64,000 nt of DNA from Pseudomonadota bacterium (GCA_014382245.1 JACNKC010000047.1:1-64000); one strand, 5' to 3'. Counted from the stretch's first letter, positions 50,335 to 56,507 are shown. Notes: generated by a model from the letters alone, not told the origin. Program-made: numbers and translations.

Positions 50335-52533
50335 ATGATGTTGAGGGCCGTTGCTACCATTCTCCTGCTGCTGCTGTCGGGCTATGCGCCAGCCGACGTG
50401 GTTGAGGCGCCGAACCTGCGCCTCGAGCTGGCAGCGGGGGTGGACACCTTGCAGCCCGGTAGCTCGTTTGACGTGGCTCTCAAGTTGACCCCGGCCGAGG
50501 GCTGGCACGTTTACTGGAAGAACCCCGGCGAGGTGGGTTTGCCTACTACCCTGGACTGGCAATTACCAGAAGGCTTGCAGGGTGGAGAGCTTGAGTTTCC
50601 TGCCCCGACTCGTTTTGTGGACGGTTCATTCGTGAGCTACGGCTACGACGCGCCGGTATTGTTGCTCTCCACTCTTACCGCCTCGGGCGAATTGGAGCCG
50701 GGTGGTCAGTTGCGGGCCGACGCGCGGGCCGCCTGGACTATTTGCAGAGAAGATCGTTGCATCCCGGGCAAGGCCGATTTGTACCTGGAGCTGCCGGTGC
50801 TGGCGATGCAGGCGATTAGCAACGCGACGTGGTCAGGGCAGATAGACACTGCGCGCAGGTCTTTTCCGAGTGCGGGCGACAAGGACTGGTCGGCCACGGC
50901 AGAGGTCTACGATGACTTCGTGCAGGTATCCCTGCGCCCGCCTGAATCCCTGGGCACGAGCTTGTCCGAACTGCAGGTTTATCCGCTGGCCAGCGGCTTG
51001 GTAGACGACGATGTGTCCGCGCGGAGCCGACCCGGCGGAGCAGGCCTGCTCGTCTCCCTGGCGCGGCAAAGGGACAGCGAGGTTCCCGAATCCACACGAT
51101 TGCTCTTCAAGTGGCCGTCGGTCGACAAGCAGCCGCGTAACGGGCAGATCGGCTACGATGCCGTGGAGCTGGACGTCGAGCTGAAGACCGTCAGCGGTCG
51201 CTTGTCTTCGCTGTTGGCACCGCAGGCGGCTGCCGCGGCTGATTCGCAAGGGGGCCTGGATACAGCGCTCAGCGAGGCGCCGCCGGTTTCTGACATGACC
51301 TTTATGCTGGCCCTTTTACTGGCTCTCGCCGGTGGCCTGGTGCTCAATCTCATGCCCTGCGTATTCCCCGTGCTGTCGCTCAAGATACTGAGTTTCGTGG
51401 CGATGGCCGGCGATGAACCAGCGGCCGTACGCCGCCACGGCCTGGTTTTCGGTGCCGGTGTCGTGCTGTCTTTCCAGGCGCTGGCCGGCGTGATGATTAT
51501 GCTCAAGGCCGGTGGCCAGGAACTGGGCTGGGGTTTTCAACTGCAATCGCCCGCGTTCGTGGCAGCCATGGCCTTACTCTTGTTTGCCCTGGCGCTGCAA
51601 CTCGTGGGGACTTTTGACATTGGTTACTCGCTCACGGCGTCGGCCGGTCAGCTGGAGGGCGGGACGAGCGGTTACAAGGGGTCTTTTCTGAGCGGGGTGC
51701 TCGCGACCGTACTTGCCACTCCCTGCACGGCGCCCTTCATGGGAGCGGCGCTGGGTTTTGCTGTTCAGCGCCCACCGCTTGAAGCCATGTCTGTTTTTAC
51801 CGCCCTCGGGGTGGGCATGGCCTCGCCCTACGTTCTACTCTCGTTCAGCCCGGCGCTGCTTCGCTTTCTACCCAGGCCTGGCGCCTGGATGGAGACCTTC
51901 AAGGAAGCGATGGCTTTTCCGCTGTTCCTGGCCTCGGCCTGGCTGGTTTGGGTGTTCGCGGGGCAGGTGGGCAACGGCGGTCTTATTTACTTACTCGCGG
52001 CATTCGTTGTTGGTGGTGCTGCGGCCTGGCTGCGGGGGCACGGGCAGTCTCGTCCTCGCGCGCTGGCGGCGCTGGGCGTGGCCGTCCTGGCCCTGCTACT
52101 GGCCCTGCAGGGAGCCGCACAACCCTTTTCAGTGTCGGCCGGCGCGGGCTCGCTGGTGGGTGGCCAGCACGCCGAGGGGGCTATCCCATGGCGCGAATGG
52201 AGGCAGGACGAGGTCGACCGTTTGCGAGCCGAAGGCAGGCCGGTATTCATCGATTTTACGGCTGACTGGTGCTTGAGCTGCAAGGCCAACGAGGCAGTAG
52301 CTTTTTCTTCGCAGCGTGTCGCCGAGCGTTTTCGCGAGCTGGGGGTAGTTGCCATGAAAGCCGACTGGACGCGCGGAGACCCGCTCATCACCCGGGCCCT
52401 GGGCCGTTACGGTCGCGACGGTGTTCCCCTGTACGTGTTGTACGATGGCAGGGGCGACTCCGAACCGCAGTTGTTGCCGCAGTTGCTCACGCCCGACATC
52501 GTGCTCGAAGCGCTGGCGCGGTTAGCCGCCTGA
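50335..52533 (+). CDS. DsbD/ScsB-like thiol:disulfide interchange protein
   Basis: Periplasmic DsbD-type N-terminal domain, CcdA-like TM core (NLMPCVFPVLSLKIL...ATPCTAPFMG), C-terminal thioredoxin ADWCLSCKANE. Confidence 0.9.
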   Translation: MMLRAVATILLLLLSGYAPADVVEAPNLRLELAAGVDTLQPGSSFDVALKLTPAEGWHVYWKNPGEVGLPTTLDWQLPEGLQGGELEFPAPTRFVDGSFVSYGYDAPVLLLSTLTASGELEPGGQLRADARAAWTICREDRCIPGKADLYLELPVLAMQAISNATWSGQIDTARRSFPSAGDKDWSATAEVYDDFVQVSLRPPESLGTSLSELQVYPLASGLVDDDVSARSRPGGAGLLVSLARQRDSEVPESTRLLFKWPSVDKQPRNGQIGYDAVELDVELKTVSGRLSSLLAPQAAAAADSQGGLDTALSEAPPVSDMTFMLALLLALAGGLVLNLMPCVFPVLSLKILSFVAMAGDEPAAVRRHGLVFGAGVVLSFQALAGVMIMLKAGGQELGWGFQLQSPAFVAAMALLLFALALQLVGTFDIGYSLTASAGQLEGGTSGYKGSFLSGVLATVLATPCTAPFMGAALGFAVQRPPLEAMSVFTALGVGMASPYVLLSFSPALLRFLPRPGAWMETFKEAMAFPLFLASAWLVWVFAGQVGNGGLIYLLAAFVVGGAAAWLRGHGQSRPRALAALGVAVLALLLALQGAAQPFSVSAGAGSLVGGQHAEGAIPWREWRQDEVDRLRAEGRPVFIDFTADWCLSCKANEAVAFSSQRVAERFRELGVVAMKADWTRGDPLITRALGRYGRDGVPLYVLYDGRGDSEPQLLPQLLTPDIVLEALARLAA

Positions 52534-52595: not shown

Positions 52596-53942
52596 ATGCC
52601 GCGGCCGACCTTTCACCTACTGACCTGCCTGCTGATCCTGGGCCTGTTGATTTCGGCGGCCGGTTGTCGCCTTGAACAAGCGGCGGTCTGCGAGGGCTGC
52701 AACGTTCTGCTGGTGTCTATGGACACGCTGCGCGCCGACCACACGGGTGCTTACGGTTACGGCTTACCGACCACCCCGAAGCTGGATCTGTTTGCGCAGG
52801 AGGCGGTGCTTTTCGAGGACGCCGTGTCGCAGTCCGCCTGGACCCGGCCTGCCCATACCTCGATGTTCACAGGCCTTTACCCCGCGGAACACGGTGTGAT
52901 TTCAATGGAGGGGAACGCAAAAGTGCCAGGCGACCTGCCCACCCTGGCTGAGCGTATGCGCGAGGGCGGCTACGCCACTGCCGCGTTTACCGGTGGCGCT
53001 AACATGTCGGCGCGTTTCGGCTTCGACCGTGGTTTCGACCTCTACAAGAGCCCGGGCAAGCGGATGGGCGAAGGCGTGAAGCCAGCCCTGGACTGGGTGG
53101 ACTCACTGACCGCGGGCAAGCCGTTCTTTCTCTTCGTGCACGGTTTTGAGCCCCACCGACCCTATCGCTCCGAACCCCAGGACCGGCTCGCCCTTGGCCT
53201 CGACTCTCCCCGGCGCAAGGGCTGGGCCTCGGTCTGTGAGAGCGGCAAGAAGCCCGCTGACCTTGACAGGTGGATACTCGAATACGACGCGGCCATTCAC
53301 CGCGGCGACCGGGCCTTCGGACGCCTGCTCAAGGGGCTCTCGGAGCGTGGCCTGGCCGATAATACCGTAGTCATGTTCACCTCGGATCACGGTGAAGAGT
53401 TCTTTGAGCACGGGCATTGCTTTCACCTCTATCGCCTGGATCGCGAGATTGTGCGCGTGCCATTGCTGGTCAGGGTGCCCGGCGTTGAGCCGTCCCGCGT
53501 CGCCGGGGTAGTGCCGGCGTCTGTGGCTGTCGCCTCTACGTTGCTTGACCTCGTCGGGTTGGGCGGGACGGGGTTCGCCGGGGAGTCGCTGGCGCGGCTG
53601 GTCACCGGCGTCGAGAAACCGGCGTTTGAATATGTCGTGAGCGAAACGGGTTCTTCTCGTGTTTCCGGATCATCCGGTAGAAAGGGAGGAGACGTTCGTG
53701 CCATCAGCGGCGACCGCGACAAGCTCGTACACTGGATGGACCAACGGCGACGCGAATACTATGACCTGTCATCAGACCCGGGTGAGCAGGACGATCTCGG
53801 CCGGTCGGCCGAAGCAGATCGCTTGTTTGAGCGATTGCAGCGCTGGACAGGCGAGCATCCACGGCGAGGAACGCAAGAAGCTATCGAGGAGCTTGACCCC
53901 CGGTTGAAACAGGAATTGAGGCAGCTGGGTTACCTGGAGTAG
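52596..53942 (+). CDS. Sulfatase/alkaline-phosphatase-superfamily lipoprotein
   Basis: Lipobox SAAGCRLEQ; NVLLVSMDTLRADHTGAYGYGLPTTPKLD; SAWTRPAHTSMFTGLYP; FTSDHGEEFFEHGH. Confidence 0.87.
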   Translation: MPRPTFHLLTCLLILGLLISAAGCRLEQAAVCEGCNVLLVSMDTLRADHTGAYGYGLPTTPKLDLFAQEAVLFEDAVSQSAWTRPAHTSMFTGLYPAEHGVISMEGNAKVPGDLPTLAERMREGGYATAAFTGGANMSARFGFDRGFDLYKSPGKRMGEGVKPALDWVDSLTAGKPFFLFVHGFEPHRPYRSEPQDRLALGLDSPRRKGWASVCESGKKPADLDRWILEYDAAIHRGDRAFGRLLKGLSERGLADNTVVMFTSDHGEEFFEHGHCFHLYRLDREIVRVPLLVRVPGVEPSRVAGVVPASVAVASTLLDLVGLGGTGFAGESLARLVTGVEKPAFEYVVSETGSSRVSGSSGRKGGDVRAISGDRDKLVHWMDQRRREYYDLSSDPGEQDDLGRSAEADRLFERLQRWTGEHPRRGTQEAIEELDPRLKQELRQLGYLE

Positions 53943-53960: not shown

Positions 53961-56507
53961 TTATCGCCCTTGTGCGACGCTGGGCTCCTTGAGCAGCGCT
54001 TCTATAGCGGCCCTGAGCCTGTGCTCGTCGACGCCTGGATCGAAGCCGGTGCTCTGGTAACGGATCATCCCGTCGCCATCGACCAGGAAGGTCGCGGGCA
54101 TCGAGTGCACCAGGTACTTGCCCTTGAGGACAGCCTGGGGGTCGGTTATCACCGGAAAATTGGTTTCGTAGCTTTCCGCGAACTCGATCGACCTGCTGGC
54201 CAGGCTGTCAACACCGACACCTATGACCTGGAAGCCGCGCGGGCCGAATTCCTTGGTGTAGTCGGCCAGGAAGGGGAATTCCTTTTTACATGGCCCACAC
54301 CAGGAAGCAAAAAAGTTGAGCAGCGTGAGTTTTCCCTTGTAGGCGCTCTCGCTCACCGCGTTGCCCTCGGCGTCGGTAGTCGAGAATATCGGCGCCCTGG
54401 TATCGAGCAGGTCGGTAACGTTAGCGCTCAGCATGGAAGCGTCGACGGGTTGCGTGGTTACGTTCTCGTCTGCGCAACAGCGGAAGCCGGTGGTCTTGTT
54501 GCGACTGCCGGGGCCTACCGTCGATGTGCGTCGATTGCAGGCGGCACCCGACTTACTCGAGGCGTAGCCGCCAAGCAGCGTGCGTCGCCCGCGCCCGCTA
54601 TCGGCCCATTCGCCTATGTTGCCAGCGAGGTCGAAAAGGCCCGAGGCGGTGCGGCAGCCCGACCGGCTACCGGTGTTCGAGGGCTCACCGGTCTTTTTAT
54701 CGGCCGAGTCGTTGCAGACACCTTCTTCGTAGTACGGGCCGTAGGGGTACATGCTGCCTTCTATGGCATCGTCGGCAAACAGGCCGTTGGAGTTGTTGTC
54801 TTCTGCTGTTTTGCCGGTGCACGCGCTAACCCATTCGAGTTCGCTGCAAAGGCGCTTACCGGCTGCCCCGCAGGCTTCTTCGGCGCCAAAAAAATCAATG
54901 CGGGCAGGCTCAAGTCCCGGTTGGCTCACCGCTCGACCGTCGCGGGTGATCGCAGCCTCGTAAGGGTCGATCCAGTACGAACCATCGCCGACCGACACCA
55001 TCGAACTGCCGTCGCCAGCGGGCGCTGTCGCGGCCTCGACCTCGGCAGAATCGGCGGCTTCGAGGGCCTTTTCTATGTAGTACTCCAGGATGGAGGCCGA
55101 AGCCGAACCGGTGACCAGCCTGTCGTTGATATAGGTGCGAGGCGTGCCGTATATGCCCGCCCTGAAGGCAGTCTCTACGTCACCGGCGATAGCCGCCTGG
55201 GTGGACTCCGCCTCGAGACAGGAGCGAAAACGATCCATGTCGGCGCCAGCCCCGGCGGCGTAGTCGTCTACCGTCTGCACGTTGAGCGAGGGTTGGTTAT
55301 CGTACATGAGGTCGTGCATTTTCCAGAAGAGTCCCTGTTCGCCCGCACAGTGAGCAGCCCAGGCGGTCTCGCAGGCGACCGGGTGCTTGTCGAAGCCTTT
55401 CATCGAGCGGTTGCACTTTACGTTCATCGGAAAGTGGCGCATGACCAGCCTTACGCGGTCGCCGTACTTGGCCATAACCGTTTTAAACGAATTGGAGAGC
55501 ATCCGGCAGTAAGCGCACTGGAAGTCGGCGTACTTTACGATGGTGACATCGGCATCGGGGTTGCCGAGCCAGAACTCGTTTTCCTTGATGGGGGTTTCGA
55601 ACATGCTCCAGCCTTCGGAAGTCTTTTTTCCGTGGCCCCTCCCAGCGACGATTGGCGGAGCAACTTTTGACGCTTTCGAGGCCGGGGCTGGCTGCTTGTC
55701 GGCCGAGCTCTCAACAGCTGACTCGGAAGTAGCTGACTCGGAAGTAGCTGACCCGGTAGAAGCTGAATCGACCGCGGCAAACTGGGCGTCTATGGCCCCG
55801 CGATAGGCAGCCTCCATCGAGCTGCCGGCGGTGTAGTAAGCCCCGAGCGCGACGCCCGCACTGACACCCACGACCAGCAATGCCTGCGGTATGGGCGCGG
55901 CAAAAGATGCCAGTGCTCGCAGGGGCGCCTTGGCGACCTCGGGCAGGGGAGAGCCCGATGCCTTCCAGGCGAGCAGGAAGGCGGCGAGGTTTACCGTGTA
56001 CAGGCCTATGCAGTACAGGCAGTAGGCGCGTAGCCAGACGGTGGAAACCCAGGCCAGGAAGAGCGAGTAGACCACCGCGATGAGTGCCAGCAGGGCCGTC
56101 GACTGAAGGACGAGACGGGCTTGCTGCAGCGAAACGCTGGTCGCCGTCTTGATGGCCGACAGCGCCTGCACTGCCAGGAAGGCCATCAGGGCGTAAATCG
56201 GAGCGGCGTAAAGGGCGATGGGCAGGCCGAGGAACTCGGAGTAACTCGAAGCGTTAACCTTGTCGCAGTTGAGGGCGCCGCCCAGGTTACAGGAAGAAAC
56301 ATAGCTCGGGTCCAGGCCGAGTTTGAGCTTGTGGCGCACCAGGAAGACAGCCACCGCGAAGCCGACCGCGCATACAGCGACCAGGGCAGTCACCAGTGCC
56401 GGCGCGTACTCGGAAACCCCAGCCTCGGCTTGCTCGTCCGCAGCCGTTTCCAGGGGCGTCGTGTTCCGGGAGGGGCGTTCTTGCTTGGACTTGTTTTTCT
56501 TTGACAT
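53961..56507 (-). CDS. Four-module protein: VKOR - DsbA-like thioredoxin - SUMF/FGE-like - TlpA-like thioredoxin
   Basis: VKOR core with SSCNLGGALNCDKVNASSYSEFLGLPIALYAAPIYA and YCLYCIG; DsbA-like YADFQCAYCRMLSNSF; SUMF-like YWIDPYEA..GKRLCSELEWVSAC...GLFDLAGNIGEWAD...GFRCCAD; TlpA FFASWCGPCKKEFPFL. Confidence 0.9.
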   Translation of the reverse strand: MSKKNKSKQERPSRNTTPLETAADEQAEAGVSEYAPALVTALVAVCAVGFAVAVFLVRHKLKLGLDPSYVSSCNLGGALNCDKVNASSYSEFLGLPIALYAAPIYALMAFLAVQALSAIKTATSVSLQQARLVLQSTALLALIAVVYSLFLAWVSTVWLRAYCLYCIGLYTVNLAAFLLAWKASGSPLPEVAKAPLRALASFAAPIPQALLVVGVSAGVALGAYYTAGSSMEAAYRGAIDAQFAAVDSASTGSATSESATSESAVESSADKQPAPASKASKVAPPIVAGRGHGKKTSEGWSMFETPIKENEFWLGNPDADVTIVKYADFQCAYCRMLSNSFKTVMAKYGDRVRLVMRHFPMNVKCNRSMKGFDKHPVACETAWAAHCAGEQGLFWKMHDLMYDNQPSLNVQTVDDYAAGAGADMDRFRSCLEAESTQAAIAGDVETAFRAGIYGTPRTYINDRLVTGSASASILEYYIEKALEAADSAEVEAATAPAGDGSSMVSVGDGSYWIDPYEAAITRDGRAVSQPGLEPARIDFFGAEEACGAAGKRLCSELEWVSACTGKTAEDNNSNGLFADDAIEGSMYPYGPYYEEGVCNDSADKKTGEPSNTGSRSGCRTASGLFDLAGNIGEWADSGRGRRTLLGGYASSKSGAACNRRTSTVGPGSRNKTTGFRCCADENVTTQPVDASMLSANVTDLLDTRAPIFSTTDAEGNAVSESAYKGKLTLLNFFASWCGPCKKEFPFLADYTKEFGPRGFQVIGVGVDSLASRSIEFAESYETNFPVITDPQAVLKGKYLVHSMPATFLVDGDGMIRYQSTGFDPGVDEHRLRAAIEALLKEPSVAQGR
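55716..55770 (-). repeat. 15-bp in-frame repeat in the VKOR-DsbA linker
   Basis: agctgactcggaagt at 55716 and 55731, degenerate copies after; encodes SATSESATSESAVESS. Confidence 0.75.

Follow-up and report, generated by a model that had tools for sequence, protein, structure and literature searches.

A Myxococcota family of VKOR-DsbA fusion proteins that carry a non-catalytic FGE-like domain and a TlpA-type thioredoxin

The 64-kb window, by which we mean the whole stretch of DNA that was analysed, contains a gene for an 848-residue protein in which a VKOR domain, a DsbA-like thioredoxin, an FGE/SUMF-like domain and a TlpA-like thioredoxin follow each other on one chain (53961..56507, minus strand). 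This four-module protein belongs to a conserved, mostly myxobacterial family with split-gene and DsbA-duplicated versions, and is classed with the VKOR-DsbA fusions, as a variant, not as an FGE. To the reading that it is an inner-membrane, periplasm-facing, two-arm thiol-disulfide machine, in which a VKOR-DsbA oxidase and a DsbD-fed TlpA reductase would be separated by a non-catalytic SUMF domain, we give an even chance.

Results

Gene and domain organization

The protein is encoded by a single open frame of 848 codons, with an ATG start at 56507 and running down to 53961; all features of the gene given below are on the same, minus strand. Pfam matched all four modules above the curated cut-offs: VKOR (PF07884, residues 41–181, 1.3e-21), Thioredoxin_4/DSBA (PF13462, residues 309–479, 1.4e-23; PF01323 also matched), FGE-sulfatase (PF03781, residues 527–677, 1.6e-7) and AhpC-TSA/Redoxin (PF00578/PF08534, residues 703–834, 2.6e-25 for PF00578). 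Among the NCBIfam models listed, none reached its own cut-off on the 848-residue fusion; the ResA model scored 94 bits on the TlpA domain, under its cut-off of 170. The preliminary description, made from the sequence alone, had read the same modules in the same order, and Pfam bears this out, as do AlphaFold2 and Foldseek for the last three. The CXXC motifs that it named (YCLYC in VKOR, CAYC in DsbA and CGPC in TlpA) are likewise present, and their Cys pairs are conserved in the family.

A full-length AlphaFold2 model built from 56 family members had a mean pLDDT of 86.6 and a pTM of only 0.56, because of which the mutual placement of the domains in it is unreliable. The model shows five long helices (residues 35–65, 97–121, 124–158, 164–184 and 206–247), a disordered linker (247–286) and then three folded domains. 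The linker (55650..55769) is of low complexity, with pLDDT below 50, and is the sole part of the protein near or above neutrality (dN/dS 0.58–1.1, compared to ≈0.07 in the DsbA domain). Foldseek, with regions assigned via the families of the targets, matched the C-terminal part to DsbE/ResA and the 300–480 part to DsbA-like proteins. The predicted models and their structural matches support the folds of the DsbA, SUMF and TlpA domains; for the VKOR domain, the support comes from its sequence and the predicted five-helix layout.

The VKOR and DsbA modules

The VKOR domain (residues 41–181; 55965..56387) is predicted to have four transmembrane helices, corresponding to the first four of the model. 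It contains the two redox Cys pairs and the conserved Ser/Thr that define a VKOR: the periplasmic-loop pair C73/C81 (56265..56291; C73 in 49 and C81 in 52 of the 52 members with a letter there), the CXXC motif CLYC (C163/C166; 56010..56021; 54/54 members with a letter) and S87, which is conserved in at least 90%. The fifth helix (residues 206–247; 55767..55892), taken from the AlphaFold2 secondary structure, would bring the remaining chain to the periplasmic side, by analogy with the VKOR-Trx fusions. In those bacterial fusions, a VKOR with two Cys pairs is joined through a fifth helix to a periplasmic thioredoxin-fold domain; bacterial variants extended at the N-terminus have also been reported, and C-terminal thioredoxin fusions are well known (PMC4555120). 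The present family shares both Cys pairs, the fifth helix and the periplasmic thioredoxin-fold domain with Synechococcus VKOR (PDB 3KP9), but differs from it in the SUMF and TlpA domains that follow and in four extra invariant Cys in the DsbA domain.

The DsbA-like domain (residues 309–479; 55071..55583; Foldseek matches 3gyk and BdbD, 3eu3) combines the expected fold with a CXXC motif (CAYC, C331/C334; 55506..55517; 56/56 members) and the cis-Pro motif GTPR. Across the family, the active-site motifs are mainly CPYC and CGYC. The extra Cys are residues 365, 379, 387 and 430, and all six Cys of the domain were found in 56/56 members. The catalytic CXXC pairs are retained across the 56-member alignment.

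Several loci carry variants of this arrangement. One protein of 998 residues (L148:2492-5488) has five modules, VKOR-DsbA-DsbA-SUMF-TlpA, with two consecutive DsbA domains. Myxococcota-type genomes also encode proteins of ≈660–790 residues in which DsbA-like domains stand in tandem, two or three to a chain (L062, L065, L078 and L079). Two members (L149 and L180) have lost the CXXC pairs of both VKOR and DsbA, which makes the oxidase arm dispensable in part of the family; they retain the 8-Cys SUMF domain and its acidic loop, and are possibly a non-redox derivative. The window genome itself encodes a second oxidase, a plain VKOR-DsbA fusion (C125), and the four-module protein is therefore not its sole oxidase.

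The FGE/SUMF-like domain

The FGE/SUMF-like domain (residues 504–684; 54456..54998) was modelled separately with a pLDDT of 93 and a pTM of 0.91. The top PDB match was human pFGE/SUMF2 (1y4j), followed by OvsA/EgtB, FGE, CalU17, PvdO, ToxD and phage Mtd; 5nyy and 1y1h were FGE-fold structures matched besides 1y4j. By sequence profile, too, pFGE/SUMF2 was the best match (3e-11). These matches place the modelled domain among C-type-lectin folds, in their FGE branch. The domain shares with FGE/SUMF1 the fold, the motifs GKRL..E.EW, GN..EW and GFRC, and the Cys of the structural pairs 218–365 and 235–346. Two of these motifs had been noticed before, as AGNIGEW-type and GFRC signatures, and the FGE fold proposed for this segment is upheld by PF03781 above its cut-off and by the Foldseek match to 1y4j.

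Eight Cys residues (546, 554, 563, 598, 618, 657, 677 and 678) are nearly invariant, each being present in 55–56 of 56 members. Human FGE has an active pair, Cys336–Cys341, and structural disulfides Cys346–Cys235 and Cys365–Cys218 (PMC4505483). In a profile alignment to human FGE, C657, in the counterpart of its active site (GGYASSKSGAACNRR; 54528..54572), aligned with the structural Cys346, while the Cys341 stretch fell in a gap (PMC4505483); C563, C546 and C677 aligned with Cys235, Cys218 and Cys365, respectively. From these positions, what the domain has in common with FGE is four structural Cys and no catalytic one; neither position of the catalytic, copper-binding pair (336/341 in human FGE) is present in the family members examined. 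The preliminary description was right that this is not a standard FGE, since both catalytic Cys are absent, but its view of the single Cys in this stretch as one of the catalytic two has to be given up, and with it the idea of half an FGE active site, which the equivalence of C657 to Cys346 rules out. By correspondence to the structural pairs of FGE, disulfides C546/C677 and C563/C657 would be expected.

Judged by its sequence, the domain is a catalytically dead relative of FGE. In kind, it is a pFGE/SUMF2-like FGE paralogue, having the FGE fold and no catalytic pair, a classification that makes no claim of orthology to SUMF2. SUMF2, like the present family, is without the FGE catalytic Cys pair. 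The SUMF domain of the family differs from SUMF2/pFGE by its eight Cys, an acidic inserted loop, its shorter length and its fusion to redox modules.

The acidic loop (D570-x-N/D-x-N/D..DD..E-G584; 54756..54800) is strongly conserved, with D570 and G584 in 55/55 members, N/D572 and D580 in 54/55 and E583 in 52/55. It was missing in the pFGE alignment and in the stand-alone SUMF proteins that we read; the 8-Cys GFRCC pattern is found in stand-alone SUMF proteins too. The loop, and not the Cys pattern, thus appears to be what distinguishes the redox-fused SUMF domains. It resembles a DxDxDG-type calcium loop and is possibly a Ca2+ site. A search of 192 genomes with the SUMF profile gave 46 matches at 150–303 bits, none of them in a frame shorter than 600 residues, the next matches scoring 111 bits or less. 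A DsbA domain was present in every high-scoring frame examined, and among these frames no redox-type SUMF domain was seen alone. Near the fusion gene at one locus (L160:1-2319, plus strand), an FGE-sulfatase domain of the ordinary kind is joined to a Ser/Thr kinase.

We considered the possibility that the SUMF Cys act as an electron relay between the two thioredoxins. This is disfavoured, since the same 8-Cys pattern is seen where SUMF proteins stand alone and where a family member has no oxidase CXXC pairs. There was no support for the earlier suggestion of a redox-controlled modification of a substrate by the domain, which more likely serves for binding or as a spacer.

The TlpA module

The C-terminal domain (residues 703–834; 54006..54401) has a TlpA/ResA-type thioredoxin fold with a CXXC motif, according to both Pfam (PF00578, 2.6e-25) and Foldseek (DsbE/ResA). 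The motif is CGPC (C737/C740; 54288..54299), with both Cys present in 46/46 TlpA domains and the sequence WCGPC[KR] in 38 of the 46. CGPC is the thioredoxin dipeptide and fits a reductant, and thioredoxins of the TlpA/ResA/CcmG (DsbE) type are usually reductants fed by DsbD or CcdA. The family TlpA domain is like these proteins in fold, family score and CXXC, and unlike them in being fused to, or encoded with, an oxidase and in its CGPC motif.

In eight loci (L144–L147 and L156–L159), a VKOR-DsbA-SUMF gene is immediately preceded by a frame that contains TlpA; where measured, the stop of this frame overlapped the next start by 4 nt in five of seven cases, no ATG having been chosen for the other two. 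In three more loci (L056, L057 and L143), tlpA lies beside a VKOR-DsbA gene that has no SUMF domain. Whether as a fused domain or as the product of an adjoining gene, TlpA belongs to one system with the other modules.

Elsewhere in the window genome, two thioredoxin-fold genes have in-frame TGA codons. One encodes a DsbA-like protein (G000:C39:64229-64696; L169:3176-3934, minus strand) with TGA exactly at the first Cys of the CXXC motif (DFQ-U-PFC), and is probably a selenoprotein gene. The other encodes a ResA-like thioredoxin (G000:C95:7139-7498; L170:3140-3556, plus strand) with TGA in ASW-U-GC, a probable second selenoprotein of this genome.

Distribution, selection and origin

Two other species of the window genus carry the fusion at 92% identity. 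Whole-protein dN/dS against these two congeners was 0.19 and 0.14; by domain, it was 0.07 for DsbA, 0.08–0.09 for SUMF, 0.13–0.20 for TlpA and 0.11–0.24 for VKOR. Dozens of full-length homologues, at 43–48% and 31–40% identity, were found in independently assembled Myxococcota MAGs. In a search of assembled-genome contigs, ≈27 loci besides those of the congeners had a frame that aligned over most of the fusion, the records being nearly all Myxococcales or Deltaproteobacteria MAGs, many of them from lakes or groundwater. In Myxococcota, 53 of 290 genomes matched at E ≤ 1e-60, and several of these had two or three paralogues. One MAG titled Klebsiella pneumoniae (L050, CAMDBH010000007.1) has a fusion and neighbourhood of the Myxococcota-clade type, and is probably mislabelled.

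An origin in a MAG and an unusual architecture might have pointed to an assembly or gene-calling chimera, as the preliminary description had allowed. The copies at 92% identity in the two congeners, the purifying selection and the dozens of homologues from independent Myxococcota assemblies refute this, leaving it a negligible probability; the four-module protein is confirmed as genuine, neither a chance product nor a chimera.

UBP10 corresponds to Binatota (PMC8262859). Among 248 genomes of the window's own phylum, the fusion was found only in the window genus; the SUMF profile matched three others at E ≤ 1e-20, where the frames that we read were SUMF proteins without redox modules. In a family tree, built quickly and with an arbitrary root, the Binatota trio sits on a long branch inside a clade of 29 (SH-aLRT 100), of which the rest are Myxococcota-type entries and which is nested in the larger family. 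The simplest reading is that the Binatota genus probably acquired the fusion from Myxococcota.

Gene neighbourhoods

In all three species of the window genus, a sulfatase-superfamily gene and a dsbD-like gene neighbour the fusion and are convergent with it, a synteny kept in these related genomes. In the window, the DsbD-like thiol:disulfide interchange protein (50335..52533, plus strand; PF02683, PF11412, PF13899) has its N-domain, transmembrane domain and C-terminal thioredoxin all present by Pfam, and is a candidate electron donor to the TlpA domain.

The sulfatase-superfamily hydrolase (52596..53942, plus strand, convergent with the fusion; PF00884, 1.6e-42) showed, when aligned, Thr where the nucleophile is expected (WTRPAH) and His in place of the usual Arg. 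Because Thr replaces the Cys of the formylglycine sulfatases, the hydrolase is no client of an FGE, and this excludes the SUMF domain as an FGE acting on the neighbouring sulfatase. No CxPxR....TG motif occurs within the 64-kb window, and no linked Cys-type sulfatase was found as a substrate, whether in the neighbour or in the window. The family thus differs from FGE/SUMF1 both in having no equivalents of Cys336 and Cys341 and in having a neighbour hydrolase that is not a Cys-type sulfatase.

NAGPA, PEGA, Kelch and DUF11-type genes come after the fusion in 16–20 loci of the main Myxococcota clade. The DUF11-type products have eight conserved Cys, the Kelch products four and the NAGPA products two, and the DUF11-type and Kelch products are of exported type; their conserved Cys make the NAGPA, Kelch and DUF11-type products plausible clients. 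In one other clade (L141, L155, L160 and L162), the fusion adjoins ccmA, ccmB, ccmC, ccmE and ccmF; in L160 and L162, another TlpA-like gene lies immediately downstream. A ccm link universal to the family was rejected, as it is found in one clade only and CcmB and CcmH of the window genome are encoded on other contigs.

Discussion

In the two-arm machine that we favour, electrons from client thiols would pass through DsbA C331/C334 to the VKOR loop pair C73/C81, then to VKOR C163/C166 and finally to quinone. This oxidase arm is based on established VKOR-DsbA biology and the intact motifs. In the reductase or isomerase arm, a DsbD-type protein would feed the TlpA/ResA/CcmG-like CGPC domain, which would reduce client disulfides. 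We infer this direction from the protein family, the CGPC dipeptide and gene linkage, namely the adjacent dsbD in the window genus and the ccm genes in one clade. Between the arms, the dead FGE/pFGE-like module, stabilised by as many as four structural disulfides and perhaps by a loop of calcium type, would most likely position the two thioredoxins and/or bind extended client peptides, a role that we infer from its fold, its lost active site and its constant linkage. Likely clients would be apocytochromes c in the ccm clade and, in the main Myxococcota clade, envelope proteins that are exported and contain Cys. The main weakness of the two-arm model is that DsbA would be oxidised and TlpA reduced although both belong to a single chain, so that the arms might short-circuit. 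It also counts against the model that dsbD linkage is seen in the window genus only and ccm linkage in one clade only, and that L149 and L180 have lost the CXXC pairs of the oxidase arm.

A real but minor possibility is that the protein is a single-chain foldase, like protein disulfide isomerase plus an oxidase, in which SUMF binds clients, presents them to the in-cis DsbA-VKOR and TlpA modules and insulates the arms. As an analogy only, protein disulfide isomerase (a-b-b'-a') also has two redox-active thioredoxin domains around non-catalytic material, but the middle domain of the family has the FGE/C-type-lectin fold, not that of thioredoxin, and the oxidase is built in. The location of TlpA on the same chain as VKOR-DsbA would favour its intramolecular oxidation, making the protein a pure oxidase with TlpA as a second, client-specific oxidase or relay; the ResA fold can be tuned by its CXXC dipeptide, and a CPHC variant of ResA (3c71) was among the Foldseek matches. 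We consider this unlikely, given the dominance of the thioredoxin dipeptide (38/46), the adjoining dsbD in the window genus, the separate tlpA genes in eight loci and a ccm linkage that points to a reductive role.

The same ccm linkage, with ccmABC-E-F adjoining the fusion in four loci and a second TlpA-like frame beside it, raises the question of dedicated cytochrome c maturation, in which DsbA would oxidise the apocytochrome CXXCH, TlpA would re-reduce it in the role of CcmG, and SUMF would bind apocytochrome or heme. In System I, electrons from DsbD to CcmG and CcmH reduce apocytochrome disulfides, and DsbA acts before CcmG in an established order (PMC8782879); a pairing of a CcmG-like protein with an oxidase of the DsbA type is reported for H. 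pylori (PMC4491210). This reading is improbable, since other clades have no ccm neighbours, the support comes from one subclade and CcmB and CcmH of the window genome are located elsewhere. It is very improbable indeed that SUMF is an active enzyme, either formylglycine-generating or sulfoxide-synthase-like, drawing electrons from the flanking thioredoxins. The FGE/EgtB fold and the adjoining sulfatase-superfamily gene would suit such an enzyme, but both copper/catalytic Cys of FGE are missing across the family, the neighbour hydrolase has a Thr nucleophile and the window has no CxPxR....TG motif. The iron ligands of EgtB-type enzymes lie in a DinB domain, and Pfam detected no DinB domain in the fusion.

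The architecture had been called unusual, and we found no paper on it in the open-access literature, but it is not peculiar to one MAG, being that of a conserved Myxococcota family. No description of a VKOR fused to an FGE-like or sulfatase-modifying-factor domain was found in that literature, which is a partial body, and the novelty of the VKOR-DsbA-SUMF-TlpA combination is not proven.

Model bacteria form disulfides with one set of proteins (DsbA/DsbB) and reduce them with another (DsbD/DsbC/CcmG), and the two pathways are kept kinetically apart. By uniting an oxidase, a dead FGE-like domain and a putative TlpA-type reductase in a single polypeptide, the present family makes the avoidance of short-circuits between such pathways directly testable. 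A redox-linked role would follow for many unexplained non-catalytic FGE-like domains. The family may serve both to introduce disulfide bonds into exported proteins and to remove them, and is a starting point for learning how uncultured Myxococcota handle disulfides and mature cytochrome c.
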